Origin: Promethearchaeota archaeon
Lineage (GTDB): Archaea > Asgardarchaeota > Lokiarchaeia > Sigynarchaeales > SOKP01
DNA: 9,695 nucleotides
Direction of reading: 5' to 3'
Assembly (NCBI GenBank): GCA_016839425.1
Contig: JAEOUI010000423.1
Location: 1-9,695, forward strand
In this document: positions 3,187 to 8,368 of the stretch, in pieces
Numbering within the stretch: the first letter of the stretch is position 1
Layout: each line of letters opens with the position of its first letter
Notes under the pieces: model-generated
Told to the model about the DNA's origin: nothing
Databases searched by the model: none
Seen by the model: the letters and a program-made list of their open reading frames with translations, nothing else
Made by a program: the position numbers and the translations under genes

Positions 3187-3193
3187 AAAAAAA
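3187..3193 (-). terminator. T-tract terminator of tRNA-Trp
   Basis: Seven T on the minus strand begin 1 nt after the discriminator base at 3195, as expected for termination of an archaeal tRNA transcript. CCA is not encoded. Confidence 0.6.
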
Positions 3194-3238
3194 GTGGGGA
3201 TGGCCGGATTTGAACCGACGGCCAACAAGTCTGGAGCC

Positions 3239-3267
3239 TTACAGTCGGAATTATAATAAGTTCCGAT
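3239..3267 (-). other. tRNA-Trp intron 2, between positions 29 and 30
   Basis: This 29-nt intron carries a 6-bp hairpin, TCGGAA (3261-3266) with TTCCGA (3245-3250) around a 10-nt loop. The bulge-helix-bulge is exon GCGG (3270-3273) paired with intron CTGT (3241-3244) through two Watson-Crick and two G-U pairs. Its bulges are CA^A and AA^G. Sliding the junction by one base still gives a pairable stem (GCAAG/CTTGT), but only this cut has both bulges of three with cleavage after the second base. Confidence 0.65.
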
Positions 3268-3282
3268 TGCCGCGATACCGGG

Positions 3283-3312
3283 TTGCGATTAAGCTTAGAG
3301 TTTAAGCAAAAT
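3283..3312 (-). other. tRNA-Trp intron 1, in the D-loop between 15 and 16
   Basis: This 30-nt intron forms a hairpin with stem GCTTA/TAAGC around loop AACTC. The bulge-helix-bulge central helix is exon GCGA (3315-3318) paired with TCGC at the intron's 3' end (3285-3288). Its bulges are AG^A and AA^C, and TT/AA pairs continue inward. Without its removal the D-loop would be 39 nt. Confidence 0.7.
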
Positions 3313-3343
3313 CTTCGCCACATCCCCGGAAGATTTTTTTTTT

Positions 3344-3356: not shown

Positions 3357-3487
3357 TCGAATCAATCTTTTTTACTTTGTATGATAAAAAATTATCCCAT
3401 TTTTTTATAGTTTTCCTAATTAATGATATTATAAAAAAGAGCTTTACTATTCGTTGTTATTCCTAAAATCTTTTCTTCATAATAAAT

Positions 3488-3494
3488 AAAAAAA
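3488..3494 (-). terminator. T-tract terminator after the 65-aa zinc-ribbon gene
   Basis: Seven T on the minus strand lie 24 nt after the stop codon of the gene ending at 3519. The type matches the other minus-strand gene ends here. Confidence 0.4.
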
Positions 3495-3518
3495 GTATTT
3501 TAAAATATGGTTCGCAAA

Positions 3519-3716
3519 TTAGATTGGTTGACCACATTGATCGCAAAATTTCGCATTTTCATCATTTAAAGTATCGCACGCTCGACACCTGATTTTAATT
3601 ACTTGTTCTTTATTGCTGTCGGTATCAAATTTAATTCCACCAGCATATATGACTGTTTCATCATCTTCCAGTGCGAGCGCGATGTATTGATTTACCTTAA
3701 ATTCTTTTTCTCTCAT
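3519..3716 (-). CDS. Small protein with a C-terminal zinc ribbon
   Basis: This is a 65-aa protein. Residues 1-40 form a short, probably beta-rich segment (FKVNQYIALALEDDETVIYA), and residues 44-61 a single zinc ribbon: C44-x2-C47-x10-C58-x2-C61, with the CxxCGxxI ending typical of such ribbons. The N-terminal pattern, a charged start then KVNxYIxLxLE followed by a TxIY strand, reminds me of the opening segment of many uncharacterised Lokiarchaeal proteins; this is from memory and unverified. The function is unknown; an adaptor or nucleic-acid-binding role would fit the ribbon. It stands alone on the minus strand between tRNA-Trp and the 82-aa gene, with about 200 bp of non-coding DNA on either side, and ends at a T-tract. 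Upstream TATA candidates are weak and no Shine-Dalgarno sequence is clear. Confidence 0.65.
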   Translation of the reverse strand: MREKEFKVNQYIALALEDDETVIYAGGIKFDTDSNKEQVIKIRCRACDTLNDENAKFCDQCGQPI

Positions 3717-3891
3717 TGTTTATTTATTAAAGGTTCTTTAATTCCTCATTAGCTTTAACTCTTAGTACACGATTTAAGTACTTAGATAAATATCAAACTA
3801 AAATCGCTGAAAAATTTTTTTATCTAGCAAGATTAATACATTGCCCCATAGATATTGTTAAAATGATTGAATATCAAATAAGCGTGTTTTG

Positions 3892-3899
3892 AAAAAAAA
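3892..3899 (-). terminator. T-tract terminator after the 82-aa gene
   Basis: Eight T on the minus strand lie 15 nt after the stop codon of the gene ending at 3915. Confidence 0.5.
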
Positions 3900-3914
3900 G
3901 CTTTATAACTAAAA

Positions 3915-4163
3915 CTAAAAATTTAGAGGGAGTTCCTTCTTAGGAGTGAGACTAAGTTCGTTTACTATAGTCATTCGCTTGACAATCTTCCTGACCTTAG
4001 TTTTTACATCAATTTCATGAATCTCGACCACTCCTTCGTCCCCCTCGTTCACATAATCAAGTATTTCTCTCAGAACTTCTTCCATTGAATATCTCGTGAT
4101 CTTCCATTTTCTGGCGTTCTTACCAAAAAAAATTGCTTTGTATGATTTCTTATATAGTTCCAT
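3915..4163 (-). CDS. Small uncharacterised basic protein, 82 aa
   Basis: I do not recognise this protein. It is soluble, with a basic N-terminal third (residues 1-24, many K and R), a predicted helix at about 25-40 (SMEEVLREILDYV) and two predicted strands (VVEIHEIDV, IVKRMTIVN) in the second half, followed by a short proline-containing tail. This suggests a small alpha/beta domain. There are no cysteines, membrane segments or catalytic motifs. A TATA-like AAATATAG on the minus strand (4191-4198), about 28-35 nt upstream of the ATG, and a T-tract just after the stop bracket it as an independent transcription unit. That, together with ordinary codon use, is the main reason to accept it as a real gene. 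Confidence 0.6.
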   Translation of the reverse strand: MELYKKSYKAIFFGKNARKWKITRYSMEEVLREILDYVNEGDEGVVEIHEIDVKTKVRKIVKRMTIVNELSLTPKKELPLNF

Positions 4164-4190
4164 GCTATTGATGTGTTAAAAGTGTATTTT

Positions 4191-4198
4191 CTATATTT
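4191..4198 (-). promoter_or_regulatory. TATA box for the 82-aa gene
   Basis: The minus strand reads AAATATAG, 28-35 nt upstream of the ATG at 4163. It implies a leader of only a few nucleotides. No Shine-Dalgarno sequence is seen. Confidence 0.4.
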
Positions 4199-4231
4199 GT
4201 AACTCATTCGCGTCTATTTAAAGGGATCTGG

Positions 4232-4238
4232 TATAAAA
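4232..4238 (+). promoter_or_regulatory. TATA box in the gap upstream of a possible 44-aa ORF
   Basis: TATAAAA sits in GGTATAAAAGTG, a near-consensus archaeal TATA box. A start of transcription near 4260 would precede the ATG at 4277 by about 15 nt, across a pyrimidine-rich run. It may instead drive a small RNA. Confidence 0.4.
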
Positions 4239-4276
4239 GTGCAATAGTTTTCTTCGTTTTTTTTCTTTTAATTAAA

Positions 4277-4411
4277 ATGACTTTCAAAGAAGATCATCGT
4301 GGGATGGAAAATGTGAATTATTCGATTTTAATGCCCATTTTTAAAGATTTTTGGATTTTTAAAAAGCCTGTTATTTTTGAATATAAACGAAGGCTTAATT
4401 CAAGAGTTTAG
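4277..4411 (+). CDS. Possible small protein, 44 aa
   Basis: An ATG at 4277 opens 44 codons ending at TAG 4409-4411. The predicted peptide has a charged start (MTFKEDHRGMENV), an aromatic and hydrophobic middle (ILMPIFKDFWIF) and a basic end (YKRRLNSRV). It matches no family I know. In favour: a near-consensus TATA box about 40 nt upstream and an otherwise unexplained 236-bp gap. Against: its small size, no Shine-Dalgarno sequence, and a 3' end that overlaps the last codons of the convergent OsmC-family gene by 12 nt. An untranslated RNA from the same promoter is an equal alternative. Confidence 0.3.
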   Translation: MTFKEDHRGMENVNYSILMPIFKDFWIFKKPVIFEYKRRLNSRV

Positions 4412-4939
4412 AACGATCTCTTCAGAAAATCTTTTCGGACTCACGAGGGAACCTCTAACAGGACAATTTTTTTCTACTTTCTTGAGAACTTGTTTGATCT
4501 TTCGGATGTTTTCGTCCGATTGAATGAACCATATGATCTTATAATCGTAAAATCCGGGAGATGGCGCATTTTTAAGGTTTAAAACGGCTCGCTTGTCGTA
4601 AGTTGCCTCAACCTTGACTTTCAGCGATTTAATTTCGAGATTAGCAAAAGTAAAATACAGCAACGCAGAAATTTGGAGGCAATTGTTAAAAGACGCGAGT
4701 AATTGGTTCATAGCCGTGGCAATCGTGCCTGATCCACCCAATTCTCTCGGTGCATCGCATTCAATCGAAATATCTCCGATTTTTGTTCGAACATGAAGAT
4801 TTTCAACCTGTTCTGTCTCGGCCACCATTTTTGAAATGTAAAGTTTATCCCCCTCTTCTGTGAATTTGTATTTATTCATACTATCGAGTCGATTCTTGTA
4901 GGCGGTAACAATTTCTTCACTTATCAACCTCTTGCTCAT
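4400..4939 (-). CDS. OsmC/Ohr-family thiol peroxidase-like protein
   Basis: OsmC/Ohr proteins are cytosolic dimers that reduce organic hydroperoxides with a reactive cysteine. Numbering from the ATG at 4954, the hallmarks are visible: the ELGGSG segment with the conserved Glu (E71), a helix carrying the peroxidatic Cys (C92, in NNCLQIS), and the second Cys (C164) in the typical CPVRGSL context. An additional Cys (C66) lies just before E71. The fold order, N-terminal strands, long central helix with C92, then strands and the helix with C164, matches the family; about 180 aa is slightly long because of an N-terminal extension of about 40 residues. I prefer the ATG at 4939 (MSKRL..., 179 aa) over 4954 because the palindromic TATA at 4958-4969 lies only 3 nt from 4954 but at leaderless distance from 4939. 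It is divergent from proS. Substrate and thiol partner are unknown. Confidence 0.8.
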   Translation of the reverse strand: MSKRLISEEIVTAYKNRLDSMNKYKFTEEGDKLYISKMVAETEQVENLHVRTKIGDISIECDAPRELGGSGTIATAMNQLLASFNNCLQISALLYFTFANLEIKSLKVKVEATYDKRAVLNLKNAPSPGFYDYKIIWFIQSDENIRKIKQVLKKVEKNCPVRGSLVSPKRFSEEIVLNS

Positions 4940-4998: not shown

Positions 4999-6474
4999 AT
5001 GGCTAAAAAGAAGAAAGACGCGCCAATCACGGGAATTACTGTATCGAAAGAAGAAGACTTTTCTGCGTGGTACACAGATGTATTAACCAAGTGCGAATTG
5101 GCAGATATTAGGTACAACATCAAGGGATTCGTGTGTTATCTCCCTTGGGCAACGATAACTATAAAAAAAATGTATCAAAAATACGAAGAATTACTCGAGA
5201 AGAACGGACACCTTCCATTAGTTATGCCTTCCTTGATCCCCGAACGGAACTTTCACTTGGAAGCTGATCACGTGGAAGGTTTTGCTCCAGAGGTTTTTTG
5301 GGTGACCGAAGCGGGCAGTTCTGGACCCTTGAGTGAACGCCTTGCCTTGCGACCCACGAGTGAGACCGCTCTTTATATGATGTATTCTTACTGGATACGA
5401 AGCTACAACGACCTCCCGTTCAAGCGATACCAATCGTGTCAAGTGTGGCGCTACGAAGGAAAAATGACCAGGCCATTTTTTCGAGGCAGAGAATTTCACT
5501 GGATAGAAGCGCACAATGTATTTGCATCCGAAGAAGAAGCAATGCAACAAGTGCATCAAGATATGGAAATGACTTATCAGATGATTCAAGAAGAATTTTG
5601 CATTCCCATCATCTTCTTTCAAAGGCCAAAATGGGACAAGTTTGCGGGGAGCGTCAATTCTTACGCTGCTGACGCGTTAATGGGTTCCGGCAAGGTTTTA
5701 CAACTGCCTTCTACGCATTATCTCGGCCAGAACTTTTCGAAACCTTTTAATGTGAAGTTCGTCGACAAGGATGGCGAAGAAAAATACGGATACATTACTT
5801 GCTACGGACCCGCCATCAGCAGGATTTACGGGGCAATGATTGCCTACTTGGGAGACGATGATGGATTGATATTACCATTCGACTTGGCTCCAATCCAGAT
5901 AGTAATAATTCCTATTCTATATAAGGGAAAAGAAAAAATCGTACTCGATAAATGTAAGGAAGTCATAAAAATTTTCCAAGAAAACTTTAGAACCAAGTTA
6001 GACGATTCAGATAATTCTCCTGGTAGTAAAAGGTATTTATGGGAAATGAAGGGTGTTCCTATCAGGATAGAAATTGGTCCAAGGGATTTGGAAAATAATC
6101 AAGCTGTCGTGATAAGAAGATATGATAGGAATAAAACTAATGTTCCTTTAAAAGAACTCAAGAAAAAAGTGCTTGAAATGGCTACAAATTACACATTAGA
6201 GTTGAAAAAGAGCAAGCTCCTGGATTTTGAAGAGCAGATAGAACCATGCCACGAGCTCGATTCCGCAAGAGAGGCTTTAGAGTCAGGAAAGATAGTATGT
6301 TGTGGTTTTTGTTCGATCGAAGAAGACGGCGAACGATGTGCGGAAATAATTGAGAAAGATCTTGGTGGTTTCGTACGCGGCAAGCGCGTTGACAATGAAA
6401 AGCACGAATTTGCAACCTGTATTAATTGCGGGGAACCCGCAACTTGTACGGTCTATATAGCAAAAAGTTATTGA
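4999..6474 (+). CDS. proS: Prolyl-tRNA synthetase, archaeal/eukaryotic type
   Basis: ProRS attaches proline to tRNA-Pro in the cytosol. Residue numbers here count from the GTG at 4990; subtract 3 for the ATG at 4999. This is a class II enzyme: motif 1 around 72-84 (NGHLPLVMPSLIPE), the proline-binding RPTSET at 121-126, motif 2 at about 147-170 (RYQSCQVWRYEGK...RGREFHW), and motif 3 at about 272-300 (GPAISRIYGAMIAYLGDDDG). The anticodon-binding domain covers about 300-410. The C-terminal zinc domain (about 435-494) has C438/C441 and C477/C480 as likely ligands and ends in Tyr (KSY), as in archaeal ProRS. There is no bacterial-type editing insertion, and the length is usual. The start is ATG 4999 (MAKKKK) or in-frame GTG 4990, which falls near the predicted transcription start. 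Codon composition is AT-richer at about 5890-6235 than on either side. Confidence 0.95.
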   Translation: MAKKKKDAPITGITVSKEEDFSAWYTDVLTKCELADIRYNIKGFVCYLPWATITIKKMYQKYEELLEKNGHLPLVMPSLIPERNFHLEADHVEGFAPEVFWVTEAGSSGPLSERLALRPTSETALYMMYSYWIRSYNDLPFKRYQSCQVWRYEGKMTRPFFRGREFHWIEAHNVFASEEEAMQQVHQDMEMTYQMIQEEFCIPIIFFQRPKWDKFAGSVNSYAADALMGSGKVLQLPSTHYLGQNFSKPFNVKFVDKDGEEKYGYITCYGPAISRIYGAMIAYLGDDDGLILPFDLAPIQIVIIPILYKGKEKIVLDKCKEVIKIFQENFRTKLDDSDNSPGSKRYLWEMKGVPIRIEIGPRDLENNQAVVIRRYDRNKTNVPLKELKKKVLEMATNYTLELKKSKLLDFEEQIEPCHELDSAREALESGKIVCCGFCSIEEDGERCAEIIEKDLGGFVRGKRVDNEKHEFATCINCGEPATCTVYIAKSY

Positions 6475-6479
6475 TTCGT

Positions 6480-6489
6480 TTTATTATAT
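6480..6489 (+). promoter_or_regulatory. TATA box for the first MBL-fold gene
   Basis: TTTATTATAT lies 27-36 nt upstream of the ATG at 6516, in the 41-nt gap after proS. This fits an independent, nearly leaderless transcript and supports 6516 as the start. Confidence 0.45.
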
Positions 6490-6515
6490 TCAACATTTTA
6501 ACAAATATTTTTATC

Positions 6516-7421
6516 ATGAACGATATCGCACGAGTTATTTCAGAAGATTACAATTCAGTATTATTTGTTGAGGGAAAAAATCAAGGTAGTTATCCCTATT
6601 CGAATTCCCTGCTCATAGGAAATTATCTTTTTGATACTGGAATATCTGAACTATTCCTTCAAAAATTAAAACAAGATCATTCTATCAAACATGTGGTTCT
6701 TAGTCATTGGCATGAGGACCATATTTCTGGAAATAAATATATTAATAATGCTATTTTTTATTGCCATTGCAAGGATAAGGAAATCATTGAAAATATCGCT
6801 AAAATGGATATTTATTATGGAGTTGAAGATCTTCAGACGATAGGCGTCTACGAGGGAATAATGAACATGCTAGATCTCAAAAACACCAAAGTTAATTCTG
6901 TTTTTGATGGTGGTGAATATATTATAAAAGATGACAATGTTCATTTAAGGATAATTCACGCACCAGGACATTCTGCCGGACATTGTTGTTTTTACGACGA
7001 GATCTCAAAAATTTTGTTTTTAGCGGATATTGATCTTTCGAATTTCGGTCCCTGGTATGGCGCATTAGACTCAAATGTAATTGAATACGAGCAAAGTATT
7101 GAAAAATTGATGAATTTAAACTCTGAATTTGCGTTTACGAGTCACTCAGGAATAATAATTGGGTCAAAAATAATTAAAGAAAATTTAATGGGAGTTCTTT
7201 CAATAATCCACAACAGAGACGAAGCCATACTTTCATATCTAAGCGAAAGAAAACCTAAATCCATAGAAGACTTCAGAAACAAAAATATTACATATAAAAA
7301 TTATGGAATCATGAAAAACTACGAGCTTTTGGCAGAAAAAATAATGATTCAATATCACTTAGACAAGCTAATTAAGAAAGGAAAAGTCTCAATAAAGCAA
7401 AATGGCTATGTCTTATCTTGA
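6516..7421 (+). CDS. Metallo-beta-lactamase-fold hydrolase with winged-helix C-terminus, copy 1
   Basis: This 301-aa protein has a complete dinuclear metal site of the MBL superfamily: H64, H66, D68 and H69 in SHWHEDHISGN, H152 in PGHSAGH, D171 in ADIDLS and H210 in FTSH. The C-terminal segment of about 60-80 residues ends in a helix-helix-wing pattern (IMIQYHLDKLIKKGK...NGYVLS) like the winged-helix tail of LACTB2-type MBL proteins. It therefore resembles the LACTB2/glyoxalase II branch; a thioester hydrolase or RNase activity are both possible, and the substrate is unknown. The frame is open upstream to 6426 inside proS, but the ATG at 6516 is chosen because the paralogue aligns exactly from there and a TATA box sits 27-36 nt upstream. 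It shares YPYSNS (26-31) and FGPWYGALDS (177-186) with copy 2, probably substrate-pocket segments. Confidence 0.85.
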   Translation: MNDIARVISEDYNSVLFVEGKNQGSYPYSNSLLIGNYLFDTGISELFLQKLKQDHSIKHVVLSHWHEDHISGNKYINNAIFYCHCKDKEIIENIAKMDIYYGVEDLQTIGVYEGIMNMLDLKNTKVNSVFDGGEYIIKDDNVHLRIIHAPGHSAGHCCFYDEISKILFLADIDLSNFGPWYGALDSNVIEYEQSIEKLMNLNSEFAFTSHSGIIIGSKIIKENLMGVLSIIHNRDEAILSYLSERKPKSIEDFRNKNITYKNYGIMKNYELLAEKIMIQYHLDKLIKKGKVSIKQNGYVLS

Positions 7422-7462: not shown

Positions 7463-8368
7463 ATGGAAAACATCGCAATAAAAATTTCAGAAGATTTTCA
7501 AGATATTTACTATGTTGAAGGAAAGGAAAAAGGAAGATATCCCTACTCAAATTCCTTCCTCGTAGGAGATTACATTGTAGATACGGGAATATCACCTAAT
7601 AGGATAAACGAGCTTAAAAAACGATATCGAATAACCAATGTACTTTTAAGTCATTGGCACGAGGATCACATTTCAGGGAATCGATTTTTTAAAAACTCAA
7701 GGTTTTGGAGCCATCCCACCGATAAGCCCGTCGTTGAGGATATATCTAAAATGACCGATCATTTTGAAATGCACGATCCGGCTTCCAATGATTTTTACGG
7801 AGAAGTAATGAGAATGTTAAATTGTCAAAATACGAAAGTCGATTCTGTCTTTATGGATAACGACGAGTTCACTATTGATGGGGGTTATCAACTTCAAGTA
7901 ATTCACACTCCTGGTCATAGTGCAGGTCATTCTTGTTTTCGAGAAAAAAACTCTAAAATTATATTTCTAGCAGATATTGACCTTTCCGATTTTGGACCGT
8001 GGTACGGGGCATTAGATTCGAGCGTTGAGGCCTTTGAGAATTCAATTCTCAAACTAATAGACGATCGTTTTGATCATGCTTTTACTAGCCATACAAATGT
8101 AATAGAAGGATCCAAGAATATTAAATCCAAACTCCAAGATTATTTATCAAAGATTTACGAAAGAGACGATACAATCCTTTCAGGCCTTTCCGAACGAAGT
8201 TCTAAAAATGTAAGCGATTTTAGCGGTCAAAGTATAATATATAAGACCTATAGTAAGGCCAAAATTTATGAAATCTTTGCCGAAGAAATTATGATTCAAT
8301 ATCATCTCAATAAACTCCTTAAGATGAATAAAATCGTGCAGGATAAGAACGGATATGTTTTAAGCTGA
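7463..8368 (+). CDS. Metallo-beta-lactamase-fold hydrolase with winged-helix C-terminus, copy 2
   Basis: This tandem paralogue of the preceding gene is also 301 aa and aligns without a single gap. By hand count 156 of 301 residues are identical (about 52%). All metal ligands keep the same numbers (H64, H66, D68, H69, H152, D171, H210), and so do the YPYSNS and FGPWYGALDS segments and the C-terminal winged-helix-like tail (IMIQYHLNKLLKMNK...NGYVLS). Both copies therefore look catalytically competent. The most divergent parts are residues 43-60, 98-112 and 131-145, which in this fold are likely surface or substrate-facing loops, so substrates may differ. The 41-nt gap to copy 1 has a weak GTGAT Shine-Dalgarno-like stretch 6-7 nt before the ATG and no clear TATA box, so co-transcription with copy 1 is likely. 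Confidence 0.85.
   Translation: MENIAIKISEDFQDIYYVEGKEKGRYPYSNSFLVGDYIVDTGISPNRINELKKRYRITNVLLSHWHEDHISGNRFFKNSRFWSHPTDKPVVEDISKMTDHFEMHDPASNDFYGEVMRMLNCQNTKVDSVFMDNDEFTIDGGYQLQVIHTPGHSAGHSCFREKNSKIIFLADIDLSDFGPWYGALDSSVEAFENSILKLIDDRFDHAFTSHTNVIEGSKNIKSKLQDYLSKIYERDDTILSGLSERSSKNVSDFSGQSIIYKTYSKAKIYEIFAEEIMIQYHLNKLLKMNKIVQDKNGYVLS

Follow-up and report, generated by a model that had tools for sequence, protein, structure and literature searches.

The window, the whole 9,695-nt stretch of DNA analysed here, very probably carries a functional Lokiarchaeal gene for tRNA-Trp(CCA), with a 133-nt precursor containing two BHB-type introns, at positions 15/16 and 29/30 (Table 1). Both sites are noncanonical, lying outside 37/38. 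Removal of both introns leaves a canonical tRNA, as is expected of noncanonical BHB introns: the product has 74 nt, 21 of 21 stem pairs and G18G19, so the restored cloverleaf described in the first-pass annotation is upheld. Splicing would most likely proceed through a host endonuclease of alpha and beta subunits with a broad-specificity loop, which would cut both pairs of bulges, after which RtcB, presumably the exon-joining RNA ligase here, would join the exons into the 74-nt tRNA. The run of seven Ts just past the gene is a likely transcription stop.

Table 1. Positions of the tRNA-Trp gene parts in the window, and of features at locus L201 of the sister genome G001.
Feature	Position	Strand	Remarks
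tRNA-Trp(CCA) gene	3195-3327	minus	G1 at 3327, A73 at 3195
Exon 1, positions 1-15	3313..3327	minus	same joint in intronless G011 orthologue
Intron 1, 30 nt, at 15/16 in D-loop	3283..3312	minus	4/4 central-helix pairs possible
Exon 2, positions 16-29	3268..3282	minus	same joints in intronless G011 orthologue
Intron 2, 29 nt, at 29/30 in anticodon stem	3239..3267	minus	4/4 central-helix pairs possible
Exon 3, positions 30-73	3195..3238	minus	anticodon CCA at 3232-3234; without 37/38 intron
Seven-T run, one base past the gene	3187..3193	minus	from sequence; likely transcription stop
L201 (G001) features	about 612-648, 3475-4803	minus	
L201 (G001) features	1269-2549	plus	

Detection relied on a profile built from the spliced tRNA-Trp of four relatives, with the window left out and introns permitted anywhere. 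It scored the locus at 99.5 bits and placed introns at 15/16 and 28/29. With the gene masked, the best score in the window was at most 16.0 bits, and 60 dinucleotide-shuffled windows gave a mean best score of 6.4 and a maximum of 16.5 bits; the extent and identity proposed by the first-pass annotation proved exact. ARAGORN, run with the bacterial code, called no tRNA at this locus, and the only Rfam match over the gene was to tmRNA (22.7 bits, E 4.8e-6), under the cut-off of 47. Common tRNA searches can therefore miss such genes, as ARAGORN under bacterial settings and the Rfam cut-off did here. The two-intron tRNA-Trp of the sister genome G001 is recognised as a tRNA by Rfam (37.3 bits).

A 4-bp central helix with cuts in 3-nt bulges, as the first-pass annotation had proposed, is possible for both introns (4/4 pairs in each), but it does not belong to the local MFE fold of either. 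In intron 1 the central helix would be GCGA (10-13)/UCGC with bulges AG|A and AA|C, and another pairing is preferred by 1.1 kcal/mol; in intron 2 it would be GCGG (24-27)/CUGU, including two G-U pairs, with bulges CA|A and AA|G, and another pairing is preferred by 3.3 kcal/mol. The outer helices amount to about one pair, at an energy cost, rather than the full outer helix of the strict motif. Since the outer helix is nearly absent and the MFE folds differ, the introns are at best of the relaxed BHB type.

The backing for these putative helices is comparative. For each intron, pairing was scored between the exon bases at -6 to -3 ahead of the cut and the intron bases at -6 to -3 from the intron end, taking the best among equivalent cut positions. 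In 55 distinct introns of the tRNA-Trp set, which are not independent because many are related by descent, 29 pair at 4/4, 23 at 3/4 and 3 at 2/4. Shuffled introns given the same treatment reached 4/4 in a mean of 1.9 cases (sd 1.4, maximum 7; 500 rounds), a control that covers the 4/4 class only; slid offsets gave 0 or 1 introns of this class, against cut sites that had been pre-chosen for best pairing. The 15/16 introns also covary with the D-stem, the helix being GCGA/UCGC in the window and GTGT with GCAC or GCAT elsewhere.

The Lokiarchaeal affiliation of the window is indicated by its ProRS, which shares 89% identity with the ProRS of JAFGGO010000149.1 (L001 in G001). They are paired with 100/100 support in a ProRS tree whose 24 rows are the window and 23 of 30 loci (L013, L015, L026 and the distant L027-L030 were omitted); the deeper forks of this tree are unresolved. 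Gene order is also shared: a small ORF, OsmC, ProRS, two MBL proteins and a radical SAM protein occur in both, with the tRNA on the same strand and side and a zinc-ribbon gene beyond it. The two metallo-beta-lactamase-fold proteins are paralogous and lie in tandem, at 6426-7421 and 7463-8368 of the window and likewise in G001. Some ProRS genes have unexpected labels. Those of L021 and L022, from two MAGs labelled Nanoarchaeota or Nanoarchaeia, are 66% identical to the window's, more than those of L027-L030 (24-36%), possibly through gene transfer or a binning error, and L015, a contig titled Cloacimonadota with a Lokiarchaeal-type ProRS (72%), is probably misbinned.

The intron joints claimed in the first-pass annotation are borne out by these relatives. 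The tRNA-Trp of G011 is intronless and its exon joints are identical to those of the window, and that of G001 has a 29/30 intron with the same hairpin stem. The G001 gene lacks the 15/16 intron and has a 32-nt intron at 37/38, where exon 3 of the window is indeed uninterrupted; G006 has a 37-nt intron at 29/30 and a 30-nt one at 37/38. Sequence comparison thus points to a 29/30 intron that predates the split of the window lineage from its sister. On the simplest reading, the window branch would have lost the 37/38 intron and gained the one at 15/16.

A survey covered 79 genomes of the order, with further searches over 17 and 12 of them, and gave 50 scored rows, of which 44 were accepted, one being the window and the other 43 coming from 42 genomes (42 of the 79 by hand count, among the matches listed). 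Six rows with scores of 90 or less were dropped (G031, G060, G078, G079, G041 and G029); that of G031 resembles a genuine tRNA-Trp interrupted at 37/38. Among the matches listed, 40 further candidates from 16 genomes included no other clean tRNA-Trp. As multi-intron genes get lower scores and more easily escape detection, the proportions hold for the genes found. Within the accepted genes among the matches listed, 43 of 44 bear introns (none in 1, one in 19, two in 21 and three in 3), 40 have at least one noncanonical intron, and 66 of the 70 introns are 29-32 nt long. Under the best BHB reading there are about ten sites: 15/16, 20/21, 22/23, 29/30, 37/38 (or 38/39, its one-base equivalent), 42/43, 43/44, 56/57, 58/59 and 59/60. 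Only the window and G038 combine two noncanonical introns with the absence of the canonical one, among these same matches, and the 15/16 intron is found in seven genes, the window and six others. Just one of those six, G023, is represented on the ProRS tree, where its clade is separate and well supported; both separate gains and an old intron that was often lost would explain the pattern. Among the matches listed, one of the 42 genomes has two tRNA-Trp genes and the others have one. In that MAG, G045, the two genes (L108 and L179) differ, also in their T-loop intron sites, and may represent a second copy or a mixed bin.

In Haloferax and other euryarchaea, tRNA-Trp carries a 37/38 intron that serves as a box C/D guide. 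The likeness to the window is limited to an intron in the gene for the same tRNA: the window has no 37/38 intron that could act as a self-guide, and the 25 introns found at 37/38 or one-base neighbours among the matches listed are of 24-40 nt and lack a C box. Indeed, the consensus RTGATGA is absent from every intron of the 44 accepted genes among the matches listed. To say that the two introns 'replace' a guide-type intron, as the first-pass annotation did, was an overstatement. A 37/38 intron is missing from 19 of the 44 accepted genes among the matches listed, the intronless one included. Lack of a guide-type intron is the usual state here: none of the genes found has an intron of the self-guide type, and this lack has no tie to the two introns of the window.

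Two other explanations of the locus were weighed. It could be a pseudogene or decayed copy bearing two insertions, with another tRNA-Trp serving the cell, and the pair of tRNA-Trp genes in G045 and the 3' tRNA-Trp fragment in sister G001 give examples of extra or broken copies. Decay is very improbable here, given that every one of the 21 stem pairs is intact, both inserts can form the full 4/4 helix, and introns interrupt 43 of 44 related genes among the matches listed. The acceptor stem differs from that of G001 by two compensatory pairs (5-68 and 6-67), along with G-C for G-U at 4-69; such differences, whichever side changed, are as expected if selection acts on the spliced tRNA.

The other explanation concerns how intron 2 would be removed, either by a cut at 28/29 or from a different local fold such as the MFE structure. 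The cut of intron 1 at 15/16 has no sequence-equivalent shift. For intron 2, the cuts at 28/29 and 29/30 are equivalent by one A and would yield identical mature tRNAs, and its MFE fold pairs GCA with UGU. Of these two equivalent cuts, however, only that at 29/30 provides the 4-bp helix, which is also possible in G001 (CCGT) and G006 (CCGC), and the local MFE fold of G001 includes it. This alternative is accordingly given very little weight, and a working gene with introns at 15/16 and 29/30 is preferred.

The first-pass annotation also anticipated an endonuclease of broad specificity, and the relatives do encode one of a suitable kind, from which the enzyme of the window genome and its assembly are predicted. 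PF01974 matches occurred in all 12 relatives' genomes searched, with the catalytic and structural subunits encoded separately: beta in each of the 12 (partial in G011, in a 105-aa frame; G006 has a further partial beta-like match) and alpha in 11 of 12, none being found in G003. The G001 alpha subunit has as its best PDB match 3p1z_B (E 5.5e-35), which we take to be the catalytic chain of Aeropyrum pernix, and the two align without gaps over the stretch where each has KPR, presumably the Crenarchaea-specific loop of 3p1z_B. All 11 alphas have the loop motif FFGxPxGxxKPR, with its Lys, together with the Y/H and K motifs. The G001 beta subunit has no His where the alphas have EH, and this His-less motif is shared by 11 of the 12 betas (G003 having F in place of Y), G011 L052 being the one that did not match. 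An (alpha-beta)2 assembly is thereby suggested for the relatives' enzyme. According to passages of PMC6379350, relaxed motifs are cleaved by enzymes of the (alpha-beta)2 and epsilon2 types, the loop as well as the enzyme type is linked to broad specificity, and one loop-less (alpha-beta)2 enzyme has narrow specificity.

Noncanonical introns are probably not private to tRNA-Trp in this group, to judge by 19 loci of G001 that were examined with a generic fold scorer. On best reading, tRNA-Gly(CCC) has one in the D-loop, at 15/16 or beside it, tRNA-Lys(CTT) at 59/60, tRNA-Arg(TCG) where the D-loop ends, tRNA-Thr(TGT) in the D-stem, at an uncertain position, and tRNA-Gly(TCC) in the variable region; L218 gave no clear reading. 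At L201 of G001 a 3' fragment of tRNA-Trp, running from about position 37 to position 73 and differing from the G006 type by one mismatch, adjoins the zinc-ribbon gene, the place taken in the window by the whole tRNA-Trp. Between the fragment and the complete gene are a DDE transposase and also a reverse transcriptase (PF00078, PF13655). No group II intron RNA was detected beside this gene by Rfam. The arrangement resembles that described in part of PMC3293823 for Caldiarchaeum, where a tRNA-Thr with changed introns is accompanied by an inserted element and a tRNA fragment.

It could be speculated that Lokiarchaeal tRNA-Trp is an intron hotspot, in which introns of about 30 nt enter and leave at few sites through the endonuclease and ligase acting in reverse on the tRNA, with a reverse transcriptase then copying the product into DNA. 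The facts bearing on this are the presence of 15/16 introns both in the clade of the window and in the separate one of G023, the similarly placed D-loop intron of G001 tRNA-Gly(CCC), and the reverse-transcriptase gene beside G001 tRNA-Trp; it is a long shot. A transposed origin of intron 1 was also considered: when as many as 3 mismatches were allowed, the 23-nt core of this intron had 2 matches in the 79 genomes. A reversed-pattern control gave more, so there is no evidence for such an event, and the match in G010 is inside an apparent coding gene and probably due to chance.

tRNA-Trp is essential. As it is nearly always encoded by a single gene in these genomes, among the matches listed, yet the genes differ by whole introns, it offers a good test of intron gain and loss in archaea close to eukaryotes.

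The splicing mechanism itself is already known, as are introns of this kind, which have been described, in the parts of the literature covered, in Thermoproteales and in the Asgard Atabeyarchaeia and Freyarchaeia; the new detail is the lineage and the turnover of introns within it. No paper on Lokiarchaeal tRNA-Trp introns was found in the open-licence literature, and for Asgard or Lokiarchaeal noncanonical tRNA introns the open-licence matches listed included one relevant Asgard paper (PMC11291895). The sites 20/21, 22/23, 29/30, 56/57 and 59/60 are on a list in PMC4090602; 15/16 is not, but the list ends in 'etc.', so this site may be known as well. In passages of PMC8450103, archaeal tRNA genes are said to have as many as three introns each, and 673 noncanonical introns are counted in 217 genomes; the words Asgard and Lokiarch- are absent from its main text. 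The tRNAs of Thermoproteales and other Crenarchaeota, as far as described in the sources cited, share with the present set short introns in the D-arm, anticodon stem and T-arm, several per gene, but they belong to a different phylum. Nearer to the window are the three Atabeyarchaeia and Freyarchaeia genomes of PMC11291895, where, in the main-text passages, 92-95% of tRNA genes have introns, often noncanonical, and over half have several. These are soil genomes of other lineages, and those passages make no comparison with Lokiarchaeal tRNA-Trp; what they have in common with the window is noncanonical tRNA introns in Asgard archaea.
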